NCBI GenBank assembly: GCA_036001465.1
Contig: DASYUH010000087.1
Location: forward strand, 1-40,732
Direction of reading: 5' to 3'
Length of the DNA stretch: 40,732 nucleotides
Origin: Candidatus Polarisedimenticolia bacterium
GTDB taxonomy: Bacteria; Acidobacteriota; Polarisedimenticolia; Gp22-AA2
A program made the position numbers and the translations under genes. Position 1 is the stretch's first letter; every line of letters begins with the position of its first letter. The notes under the pieces are model-generated. The model was not told the DNA's origin. It saw only the letters and a list, made by a program, of their open reading frames with translations, and made no database searches. This document shows positions 8,032-10,967 of this stretch, one piece after another.

Positions 8032-8181
8032 ATGGCGAAGAAGATCCATCTCGAGATCGAGGTGCTCGAGGAGCGGATCGCGCCGAGCGGTCTCGGCAAC
8101 CCGGGCAACAACAACCCGCCGCTCAACAACACGAACAATCCGGGCAACGAGGGCACGGGCGGTCAGGTTTCGACTCCCTGA
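8032..8181 (+). CDS. LEERIAP-leader small peptide 1 (49 aa)
   Basis: A 49-codon gene with an almost ideal ribosome-binding site (AAAGGAGGTGA, 8015-8025) six bases before the ATG. Residues 1-19 are a charged, helix-prone leader ending in the motif IEVLEERIAPS (residues 9-19). The tail (20-49) has a completely different composition, dominated by Asn, Gly and Pro, with PGNE at 37-40 and no Cys. The next two small genes repeat the same leader and the PGN[EQ] element with otherwise unrelated tails, which is how families of precursor peptides behave. There is no signal peptide, so export must use a dedicated route; the PqqD-M50-HlyD gene downstream is the obvious candidate. The N-terminal motif also recalls the LExRxxP-type N-terminal motifs of planctomycete surface proteins. 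The function is unknown. Confidence 0.8.
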   Translation: MAKKIHLEIEVLEERIAPSGLGNPGNNNPPLNNTNNPGNEGTGGQVSTP

Positions 8182-8196
8182 AGCGCGCAACGCTTC
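8180..8196 (+). other. intercistronic hairpin after peptide 1
   Basis: GAAGCG-CGCAA-CGCTTC forms a perfect 6-bp stem that begins inside the stop codon of peptide 1. It is not followed by a T-run, so it looks more like an RNA-processing or stability element than an intrinsic terminator. Confidence 0.4.
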
Positions 8197-8242
8197 CAGC
8201 GAATTCTGACGAATGACCGTGGAGCAAGAAAGGAGAGACACG

Positions 8243-8404
8243 ATGGATCTTCACGATCTGAAAGTCGAAGAACTCGAGGAACGGATCGCGCCCGACAGCA
8301 TCAACGGTGTTCCCGGCGAGAGCAACGGAAATCCCGGGAACGAAGTATCCAACGGTTCCTCGCCGCAGCCGTCGAGCCACACGGCGGACTCGCACGGCAA
8401 CTGA
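8243..8404 (+). CDS. LEERIAP-leader small peptide 2 (53 aa)
   Basis: A 53-codon gene. I choose the ATG at 8243, eight bases after AAAGGAGA (8230-8237). A longer frame from 8213 exists, but it would run through this ribosome-binding site and add residues with no counterpart in the sister peptides. The leader reads VEELEERIAPD (residues 8-18), the same motif as in the genes on either side. The tail (19-53) is Gly/Asn/Ser/Pro-rich and contains PGNE at 31-34, then a His- and Ser-containing end; there is no Cys. It lies 61 bases after peptide 1. It is probably a substrate of the downstream PqqD-M50-HlyD protein; the mature form and activity are unknown. Confidence 0.8.
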   Translation: MDLHDLKVEELEERIAPDSINGVPGESNGNPGNEVSNGSSPQPSSHTADSHGN

Positions 8405-8436
8405 AGCAGAAGGGCGACGGCTCGTCGCGACGCGCG

Positions 8437-8482
8437 GCGGGCCGCCGCCCGCATCATGCCGCCCGGCCGTCGTGCCGGGTGG
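8437..8482 (+). other. two tandem hairpins between peptides 2 and 3
   Basis: GCGGGC-CGCC-GCCCGC occupies 8437-8452. A second, longer stem at 8459-8482 pairs CCGCCCGGC with GCCGGGTGG (one G-U pair). The second stem ends directly before the AAGGGAGGTGA ribosome-binding site of peptide 3, so it could influence its translation or mark an mRNA cleavage point. There is no T-tract. Confidence 0.4.
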
Positions 8483-8504
8483 TCGCCAAGGGAGGTGACG
8501 GAGA

Positions 8505-8669
8505 ATGGAATTGACGATCGAAGTCCTGGAGGAGCGGATCGCGCCGAGCGTCACGGGCACCGGAGGGTACGACGGCCAGCCCGGGAATCAGTGCAACGCC
8601 GGGCAGAATCCCTCGGGCAGCGCCAATCCCGAGGGAAGCGCGAACCCGGAAGGGAGCGCCAACCCGTAG
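8505..8669 (+). CDS. LEERIAP-leader small peptide 3 (54 aa) with GSANPE repeats
   Basis: A 54-codon gene whose ATG follows AAGGGAGGTGA (8488-8498) at ideal spacing. The leader IEVLEERIAPS (residues 5-15) is identical to that of peptide 1 over this stretch. The tail contains PGNQ at 26-29, the only cysteine of the three peptides (C30), and a short tandem repeat of the hexapeptide GSANPE (2.7 copies, residues 38-54). The repeat copies differ mostly at third codon positions (GGC/GGA/GGG for Gly, GCC/GCG for Ala, AAT/AAC for Asn, GAG/GAA for Glu), which points to selection on the peptide sequence. It lies about 100 bases after peptide 2 and 78 bases before the M50-HlyD start. The function is unknown; it is probably exported and/or trimmed by the downstream protein. 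Confidence 0.8.
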   Translation: MELTIEVLEERIAPSVTGTGGYDGQPGNQCNAGQNPSGSANPEGSANPEGSANP

Positions 8670-8685
8670 GAGCAGGCTTGGTAAT

Positions 8686-8729
8686 CCGGCCCCGTGGCCG
8701 GCCACCGGGCGGTTGAGGCGGTGGCCGGC
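8686..8729 (+). promoter_or_regulatory. mutually exclusive hairpins before the M50-HlyD gene
   Basis: A perfect 11-bp inverted repeat, GCCGGCCACCG (8697-8707) and CGGTGGCCGGC (8719-8729), separates the three peptide genes from the transporter-like gene. An alternative 6-bp stem, CCGGCC-CCGT-GGCCGG (8686-8701), shares bases with its left arm, so both cannot form together. This layout could partially terminate or process the transcript, giving more peptide than exporter. No T-run follows. The regulatory role is inference. Confidence 0.45.
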
Positions 8730-8747
8730 GCGGGACGCGAGGCGATC

Positions 8748-10967
8748 ATGGAGATGCAACCCGCGCGGCTCAGAGACGACCTCGTCTTCAGCACCCAGGA
8801 GACGCCCGAAGGGCTCTTCCACATCGTCAAGGATCCTTCGACGGGCCGGTTCTTCCGATTCCGCGAAGCCGAGTTTTTCATCCTCAAGCACCTCGAGAGC
8901 GCGGCCGACCCCGGGACCATCCGCGCGAAGCTGGAAACGGAGTGCGCCGCCGCGGTGCCTCCCGGCGCGGTCGAGCGGTTCATCGACAGGATCCGATCGC
9001 TCGGCCTCATCGCGGGGCTGGAGACGGGAACGGGCCGGCCCGCGGAAAGCCGCGGCAGGATCCGCGGCAATCCCCTCTATCTGAGGGTCAAGGTCTGCGA
9101 TCCGGATCGGCTCTTCGGCGCTCTCGCCCCGAGACTCGGGTTCTTCTTCACACCGGCCTTCCTGCTGAGCGCGACGGTCCTGATCCTCGCCACGATCGGG
9201 TGGAGCGTCGCGCACACTCAGGAGCTCGCCCAGGATCTCGGCCGGCTCCTGCAGCCGCCGGTCCTTCTGTTCGCCTGGTTGATGGTGTTCGCAGTCACAA
9301 TCCTGCACGAATCGGCTCACGGAATCACGTGCAAACGGTTCGGCGGCGGCGTGCACGAGGTGGGGGTCATGCTGATCTACCTGCAGCTCGCGTTCTACTG
9401 CAACGTCAGCGATGCCTGGCTCTTTCCGCAGAAGGCGAAGAGGCTCTGGGTCACTTTCTCCGGAGCGTTCTTCGAGCTGTTCCTGTGGGCCCTGGCGACG
9501 GTGACTTGGCGCATCACGGAGCCGGACACGTGGTTGCACCTGGCGGCCCTGGTCGTGATGGCGACCTCGGGAGTGAAGTGCCTGTTCAACCTCAATCCGT
9601 TGATCAAGCTGGACGGCTACTACCTCCTGAGCGATTTCCTGGACGTCCCGAACCTCAGGTCCAAGGCGTTCGCGTATCTCGGGAACTTCTTCGGGCGGCT
9701 GTGGGGCCGCCCGCCCTCGGGGACGGGCAACGCGACGCCGCGCGAGAAACGGATCTTCATCGTCTACGGTCTGCTGGCTTCCGTGTTCTCCTTCCTGATG
9801 CTCGGGCTGATCCTGCTGCACATCCAGGATCGCCTCGTGGCGCGTTACCAGGGTATCGGGTTCCTCATCTTCGCCGCGATCGTCGCGATCCTCTTTCGCA
9901 ACCCCCTTCGCCGGCTCCTGTCCCGGCCGGTCGCCGCGCTCGCGCCCACCGGCGCCGCGTCGATCTGGAAACGCCGTCCCGTGAGAGCGTCACTTCTCCT
10001 GGCGGCGGTTTTCGCGGCCGCCTGCTTCGGGCGCATGCCCCTCAAGGTCTCCGGTGAGTTCAAGATCATGCCTTCGCAGAACGCCGACATCGTCGCCCTG
10101 ACGGACGGCGTCATCGAGGAGGTGCCGGTGGAGGAAGGGGCTCGAGTCGGGCCGGGCGATCTGATCGCGCGCATCTCCGACCGTGACTGGCGGGCGGAGC
10201 TCGAGAAGACCGAGGCGGAAATCCAGGAAAGACGGGCCACGCTCCGGGTGCTCCAGGAAAGGAGGGTGAGCGCCGGGGCCGCCGTCGAGAAGGGTCAGGA
10301 ACGTCTCAAATACGGACGTGTCGCCTACCGCAGGCTGCAGACCCTGAGCAAACAGGGGCTGGTGTCGGCCAGGGAATTCGATGAAGCCGCGGAGCAGGTC
10401 GCGGTGAGGGGCAAGGAGCTGGACGAGTCCCGTTCCGCACTCAAGGGGGCCGGCGACGACGTCGAGGCGAACGAGGCGGCCGTGGCCCGCCTGGAGACGC
10501 AGCGCGAGTATATCGAAGGGCAGATTCGCCTCCTGGGGCTCGTGACGCCGCACGCCGGCGTGGTCGCCACCCCCCGGATGAAGGAAAAGATCGGCCAGTA
10601 CGTGAAGAAGGGAGATCTGGTCGCCAAGGTTCTCGAGCTCAGCACGGTCACGGCCGAGATCGAGATTCCCGAGAGGGAGATCGCCGACGTGCGCGTGGGT
10701 CAGAGCGTCCTTCTGAAGGCGCGCGCGCTGGCGGGGCGGACATTCTCGGGGACGGTGACCGCCATCGCTCCGGCCGTCGCGTCGGCGGAAGGGCAGCCGT
10801 GGCTCAAGGTCGTCCGCGTCACTACGGCCCTGGACAACGCCGACCAACTCCTCAAGGCGGAGATGACCGGGACCGCGAAGATCATCTGCGGCCGGAGGTC
10901 GGTCCTCGACCTCCTGACACGCCGGCTGGCGCGCTATTTCCGCGTCGAATTCTGGTCGTGGTGGTGA
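8748..10967 (+). CDS. PqqD-like / M50 zinc metalloprotease / HlyD adaptor fusion (peptide processing and export)
   Basis: 739 residues from ATG 8748; an upstream GTG at 8694 would place the coding region inside the hairpin arms. Residues about 10-92 resemble a PqqD-like winged helix, the fold used to bind leader peptides. A multi-pass membrane region follows, with the M50 site-2-protease signature HESAH at 187-191 and the second metal-ligand motif NPLIKLDGYY at 283-292 (D289). Residues about 430-739 form a HlyD/RND-type periplasmic adaptor: two lipoyl half-motifs (about 445-475 and 600-630) flank a long coiled coil (about 480-597). Related PqqD-M50-HlyD proteins are annotated as putative peptide zinc metalloproteases. 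No ABC ATPase or TolC gene is adjacent. Context suggests it recognises the LEERIAP leaders, cleaves them and passes the tails outward; this is inference. Confidence 0.85.
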   Translation: MEMQPARLRDDLVFSTQETPEGLFHIVKDPSTGRFFRFREAEFFILKHLESAADPGTIRAKLETECAAAVPPGAVERFIDRIRSLGLIAGLETGTGRPAESRGRIRGNPLYLRVKVCDPDRLFGALAPRLGFFFTPAFLLSATVLILATIGWSVAHTQELAQDLGRLLQPPVLLFAWLMVFAVTILHESAHGITCKRFGGGVHEVGVMLIYLQLAFYCNVSDAWLFPQKAKRLWVTFSGAFFELFLWALATVTWRITEPDTWLHLAALVVMATSGVKCLFNLNPLIKLDGYYLLSDFLDVPNLRSKAFAYLGNFFGRLWGRPPSGTGNATPREKRIFIVYGLLASVFSFLMLGLILLHIQDRLVARYQGIGFLIFAAIVAILFRNPLRRLLSRPVAALAPTGAASIWKRRPVRASLLLAAVFAAACFGRMPLKVSGEFKIMPSQNADIVALTDGVIEEVPVEEGARVGPGDLIARISDRDWRAELEKTEAEIQERRATLRVLQERRVSAGAAVEKGQERLKYGRVAYRRLQTLSKQGLVSAREFDEAAEQVAVRGKELDESRSALKGAGDDVEANEAAVARLETQREYIEGQIRLLGLVTPHAGVVATPRMKEKIGQYVKKGDLVAKVLELSTVTAEIEIPEREIADVRVGQSVLLKARALAGRTFSGTVTAIAPAVASAEGQPWLKVVRVTTALDNADQLLKAEMTGTAKIICGRRSVLDLLTRRLARYFRVEFWSWW

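Follow-up and report, generated by a model that had tools for sequence, protein, structure and literature searches.

Short LEERIAP-leader peptides encoded beside an RRE-site-2 protease-HlyD fusion: a probable two-part peptide cassette

We wondered why three very short genes should precede a gene for a fused membrane protease and adaptor in a Candidatus Polarisedimenticolia bacterium (Acidobacteriota). The locus lies on contig DASYUH010000087.1, positions 1 to 40,732 of which are referred to as the window. The short genes (8032..8181, 8243..8404 and 8505..8669, all features here being on the + strand) encode peptides of 49, 53 and 54 amino acids (aa), and each has a strong Shine-Dalgarno sequence ahead of it (aaaggaggtgatt, agaaaggagagac and agggaggtgacgg, respectively). 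All three peptides carry the block [IV]E-x-LEERIAP, and their genes are followed by a gene (8748..10967) for a 739-aa fusion of an RRE (PqqD-like) domain, a site-2 (M50) protease and a HlyD-type adaptor. A first-pass annotation had described both the peptide genes and the domain composition of the fusion, and both descriptions were borne out, the latter by structure prediction, Pfam and motifs. We conclude that the locus is probably a two-part cassette of precursor peptides and a leader-peptidase/export fusion, in which the RRE domain would bind the leader, the protease would cut after its Pro and the adaptor would serve export.

Linkage and conservation of the peptide genes

Homologues of the fusion were drawn from genomes of the same phylum and from contigs of named genomes, and their flanks were searched for short open reading frames (ORFs). 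Short ORFs with the motif [EQD].LE.[RK]..P adjoin the fusion in 35 of the 56 collected homologues, on either side of the gene; as the collection was built via the fusion, this count speaks to linkage and not to natural frequency. Motif and detector were fixed after part of the loci had been viewed, and the far-flank and reversed-motif counts serve as the control: 48 such ORFs lay within 1.5 kb of fusions (154 kb of sequence) versus none in the 429 kb beyond, and the reversed motif gave no hit with the same detector. Most homologues are metagenome-assembled, and contig ends hide some flanks. When [EQ]xLExRIAP was searched for as a degenerate codon pattern in 396 same-phylum genomes, 62 matches were obtained versus 8 for the reversed control, and in the genomes of loci L038, L039, L042 and L046 the strict codon pattern occurred at the fusion locus only. 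Homologous fusions are thus recurrently, rather than never, found near such peptides, as the first-pass annotation had anticipated.

The linkage follows the tree of the fusion. Peptides accompany 12 of 13 members of the window clade (support 99), which includes a Chthoniobacterales homologue; the locus of the remaining member, L160, begins at a contig edge. In the class-level clade 8/10 members carry peptides, and in a third clade 9/12, the three misses having less than 0.8 kb of downstream sequence. LExRIAP peptides are encoded upstream of the fusion in the window clade, downstream in the class-level clade and convergently in two genomes. Clustering without any motif retrieved downstream peptides of 19-23 aa (MQTEIEILE[ST]RETP), often in tandem, in the third clade, and these share L-E-x-R-x-x-P. 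Among Zixibacteria homologues (28-31% identity), 25-aa peptides such as MEFYELLIEELEEKVAPISISQGGQ accompany two of the seven that the tree includes and are also present at the partial locus L048. Natural negative controls for the pairing are provided by two sets of loci. No peptide was found near two paralogues, L056 in the window's own genome (G000:C53:6605-8938) and L110 (G004:C185), in which HExxH is replaced by PRALVH and LDG by MDG and which, judged from these changes, are probably inactive proteases; nor were peptides found beside 20 distant Verrucomicrobiota M50-HlyD loci.

The peptides themselves are conserved. Ratios of nonsynonymous to synonymous change were 0.03-0.32 for whole peptides (dN/dS) and 0.03-0.35 for the tails behind the LEERIAP block alone (pN/pS, twelve comparisons). 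Tail 1 is 87% identical to its counterparts at L038/L049 despite 59-68% differing synonymous sites (pN/pS 0.15-0.18), and tail 2 is 61-65% identical to peptides of the same loci (pN/pS 0.34-0.35). The tails are under purifying selection, the lack of which the first-pass annotation had named as refuting its reading. These ratios confirm that the small frames are real, and the control counts confirm that their pairing with the fusion is not due to chance.

Over 36 peptides, the leader follows the pattern xLEx[RK][IVLE][ATN]P. Numbered back from its last residue, it has invariant L(-7), E(-6) and P(-1) and always R or K at position -4; the residue behind the Pro is mostly Gly or Ser. Tails range from 5 to 81 aa and are without DNA-binding or transmembrane character. 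Those of the window are hydrophilic (72-87% G/P/N/S/T/Q) and acidic. Tail modules are shared between loci, namely GNPGNNNPPLNNTNNPGNEGTGGQVST, NGNPGN[EQ]VSNG..PQPS, GY[DE]GQPGNQ and NPEG repeats; peptide 3 has GY[DE]GQPGNQ in common with L052-L055 and NPEG repeats in common with L038/L049. None of the window peptides matched an NCBIfam model, and Pfam gave no match above cut-off. A relation to the N-terminal motif LEPR-XLL was ruled out, with no NCBIfam model matching any peptide even at E 10.

Further peptides were observed in several genomes. The window's own genome holds a fourth LEERIAP peptide (G000:C109:36553-36578; L109:9530-9712, + strand) with no fusion adjoining, whose tail combines the modules GYEGQPGNQ, SGSANPE and PQPNP of other peptides. 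Loci L166-L168, L171-L173, L184 and L185 encode up to three tandem copies of 19-23-aa precursors downstream of the fusion, with tails of five to nine residues (SVLWI, VIVWT, GVLWTIGQP). The fusion is followed about 0.5 kb downstream, at L166-L168 and L185, by short frames with the conserved end MASAILWL, which possibly represent a separate, very short peptide. L163 encodes three and L164 four 31-aa peptides (MAKKSTKKVVKLNVERLEKRIAPTRAAIAMG) that are near-identical and convergent with the fusion.

The fusion protein and a proposed processing route

The adaptor half filled the Foldseek results for the full model of the fusion, and residues 1-415 were therefore folded alone (pLDDT 87.6, pTM 0.84). 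The RRE domain (residues 4-91, 8757..9020, delimited by structural alignment) is predicted to fold as β-β-β-α-α-α and matches lasso-peptide B1 proteins that were solved with leader peptides. VIA-align gave Z 11.4 for the lasso B1-leader complex 6jx3 (83 aligned residues, 2.5 Å), Z 11.2 for 5v1v and Z 8.1 for PqqD (5sxy). The predicted membrane domain matches the site-2 proteases (S2P) RseP, SpoIVFB and archaeal mjS2P at Z 9.5-10.6; structural alignment and invariant catalytic residues delimit it to residues 168-359 (9249..9824). It contains the zinc-binding/catalytic motif HESAH (residues 187-191, 9306..9320) and the second S2P motif NLNPLIKLDG with the metal-binding Asp (residues 281-290, 9588..9617). 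H187, E188, H191, N281, P284 and D289 are invariant among the aligned homologues. The C-terminal half is a HlyD/MacA-like periplasmic adaptor with a long helical hairpin (residues 429-718, 10032..10901), for which Foldseek returned MacA (3fpp, E 1.8e-18) and next EmrA (4tko), and Pfam a significant HlyD_D23 match (1.2e-19).

The best NCBIfam match of the fusion is the daptide intramembrane metalloprotease (NF041824, daptide_HExxH), which covers residues 13-383 at 223-225 bits, below the equivalog cut-off of 300. This model matches all 42 aligned homologues, and no genome exceeds its cut-off (0/16 genomes). Pfam recognized PqqD in 10 and M50 in 40 of the 42, with a weak DUF3267 match in 19, and the HlyD/MacA-type half is kept in 42/42. 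At L042 and L055 the fusion gene is split in two frames, through assembly error or decay, and the peptides are intact.

How might these parts act together? Daptide precursors carry the motif ELExMEAP and are recognized by RREs, and their products are cut C-terminal to Pro, leader removal being assigned to the RRE-fused site-2 protease MpaP (PMC10036551). Later daptide work placed the cut after ELExxxxx (PMC12338566). Daptide leader peptidases are homologues of the RRE and S2P half of the fusion, and ELEERIAP stands in the same eight-residue register as ELExMEAP, so that cleavage is predicted directly after the Pro of LEERIAP (residues 12-18, 8065..8085 in peptide 1; 11-17, 8273..8293 in peptide 2; 8-14, 8526..8546 in peptide 3). 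Peptide 1 would thereby be divided into leader MAKKIHLEIEVLEERIAP (18 aa) and tail SGLGNPGNNNPPLNNTNNPGNEGTGGQVSTP (31 aa), peptide 2 into MDLHDLKVEELEERIAP (17 aa) and DSINGVPGESNGNPGNEVSNGSSPQPSSHTADSHGN, and peptide 3 into MELTIEVLEERIAP (14 aa) and SVTGTGGYDGQPGNQCNAGQNPSGSANPEGSANPEGSANP.

We propose that each short gene yields a precursor whose N-terminal leader, L-x-[IV]-E-x-L-E-x-R-I-A-P, is followed by a tail. The window cassette combines this conserved leader with a predicted RRE fold, and the cytoplasmic RRE domain would bind the leader; its alternating L-x-[IV]-E-x-L suits strand addition to an RRE. The site-2 protease would then cut, and the freed tail, presumably unmodified, would be passed to the fused MacA/EmrA-like adaptor and delivered across the periplasm. 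The role in export is suggested by the fold of the adaptor, and an unlinked TolC-type channel would probably join it. There is precedent for such a dual role, as the M50 enzyme EpeP is thought to both cut and export (PMC10885120). A GC-rich hairpin (8691..8735, no T run) separates the fusion gene from the three peptide genes and is a possible attenuator, through which peptides would be produced in excess of the fusion protein. Strong hairpins or terminators also separate peptide genes and fusion at L040, L046, L052, L053, L055 and L156; in six homologous loci, unlike in the window, the hairpin carries a T run and resembles a terminator.

Several observations weigh against this cassette model. 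No ATPase, ABC transporter or TolC was recognized beside the window locus, which leaves both the energy supply and the exit through the outer membrane unexplained. Helices embedded in the membrane are the usual substrates of site-2 proteases, but the tails in the window are hydrophilic. The daptide leader-RRE contact that was tested by mutation is that of MpaB, not that of the protease MpaP. Such peptides were also not found at five of eight Zixibacteria homologues, at two members of the class-level clade and in the outlying M50-HlyD clades of the tree.

Relation to known systems

The cassette resembles daptide loci in encoding several short precursors, in the register of the leader and in an RRE fused N-terminally to a site-2 protease, with a near full-length match to the daptide protease model. 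In contrast to daptides, it has R-I in place of M-E at -4/-3, and across the 36 peptides, none of which fits ELExMEAP, position -4 always and -3 mostly differs from daptide leaders. Its protease is fused to a HlyD adaptor and its window tails are hydrophilic. DapB (DUF-RRE), the oxidoreductase, the aminotransferase, the methyltransferase and an ABC transporter were all absent from the nine window neighbours scanned. In its likely mechanism the cassette follows the leader processing of daptides. It does not itself encode a daptide, since DapB/C/D/M and an ABC transporter are missing beside the fusion, the invariant C-terminal Thr is replaced by P, N and P in peptides 1, 2 and 3, and the score of the fusion lies under the family cut-off.

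Epipeptides (YydF/EpeX with YydH/EpeP/LiaK) likewise have a short precursor matured by an M50 protease, but the fusion scores 36.3 bits against a curated YydH/LiaK cut-off of 225 and no radical SAM epimerase lies near the cassette. The LiaK model spans 246 positions, from which length we presume that it includes no HlyD or RRE fusion. In PCAT exporters (C39 peptidase-ABC), a single protein joins recognition, removal of the leader and export; the fusion differs by its zinc intramembrane protease and adaptor and has neither a C39 domain nor an ATPase. In the TMcin system TmcA/TmcP, an S2P-clan protease also removes a leader at the membrane, and the weak DUF3267 matches in 19 of the 42 homologues are a further likeness; the TMcin precursor, however, contains both a transmembrane helix and a disulfide, has an escort dedicated to it and belongs to a different gene set (PMC13252029).

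M50 and HlyD domains also occur together in a module of PVC bacteria and others that comprises M50-HlyD, GAF-HlyD and a secondary SecA_DEAD protein, the M50 part being proposed as an inner-membrane pore (PMC4452313). Unlike this module, the window fusion has no recognizable SecA_DEAD or GAF-HlyD protein among its scanned neighbours, and the loci that do resemble it fall in distant clades, at 23-29% identity, where LExRxxP peptides are lacking. One distant M50-HlyD fusion (L067:8763-11135) is adjoined by a GAF-HlyD protein, as in the module.

Among open-licence papers, LEERIAP appeared in no relevant one (fungal names and pollen only), and none combined PqqD with M50 and HlyD, or daptide with M50. 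The pairing of peptides and fusion recurs across several phyla and appears to be undescribed. The statement of the first-pass annotation that it knew of no described family with this motif is right in part only, as daptides set a precedent with their ELExMEAP leader and RRE-S2P protease (PMC10036551).

Alternative explanations and implications

It is possible, though we doubt it, that enzymes encoded elsewhere modify the tails before the fusion removes the leader, which would make the products true ribosomally synthesized and post-translationally modified peptides (RiPPs). RRE domains nearly always serve RiPP pathways, the closest relatives (daptides and epipeptides) are modified, and N, P and G are strongly conserved in the tails. 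However, the nine scanned neighbours in the window flanks are ordinary genes, including an antiporter, a ferredoxin reductase, kelch repeats and PhoD, with no RiPP modification enzyme among them, in line with the first-pass annotation. Neighbours at 12 further loci are unrelated and non-recurring, as far as ORF lists with most genes not scanned against families indicate. One leader on such different tails also argues against a single conserved chemistry.

That the cut instead frees a membrane-associated or intracellular regulator, by regulated intramembrane proteolysis with the HlyD part as sensor or scaffold, seems unlikely to us. Signalling is the role for which site-2 proteases are best known (RseP and SpoIVFB folds), and no transporter lies beside the window locus, but retention of the HlyD/MacA-type half in every aligned homologue and the character of the tails speak for another role. 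A bacteriocin-like toxin cassette is improbable. Several precursors next to a single peptidase/exporter would suit it, as would the very short hydrophobic tails of one clade (SVLWI, for instance). The tails of the window, by contrast, are hydrophilic and acidic, and they are conserved between distant genomes where toxins would evolve fast; no immunity-like gene was noticed beside the window cassette, and scans with a defence-system library gave no hits. Rfam scans were empty as well. Finally, GC-rich DNA commonly holds short frames, but spurious ORFs are refuted by the empty 429-kb control, the strong Shine-Dalgarno sequences and purifying selection.

The RRE/site-2-protease logic of daptides has been described from Actinomycetota and Bacillota; the two-part cassette carries it into lineages of Acidobacteria, Zixibacteria, Verrucomicrobia and others, in the form of a stripped-down two-gene arrangement fused to an export adaptor. 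Tentatively, it may represent a widespread route in which one protein recognizes the leader, cuts in the membrane and exports unmodified peptides through the S2P cavity and the fused adaptor; the conserved tails might then be secreted peptides of a new class, serving in signalling or at the surface, in lineages that are mostly uncultured. If export holds true, the cassette would secrete peptides with no ABC transporter dedicated to the task. The leader motif can be used to find many unannotated short genes, and the peptides are a likely substrate class for one branch of the M50-HlyD fusions, proteins that previously had no known role.

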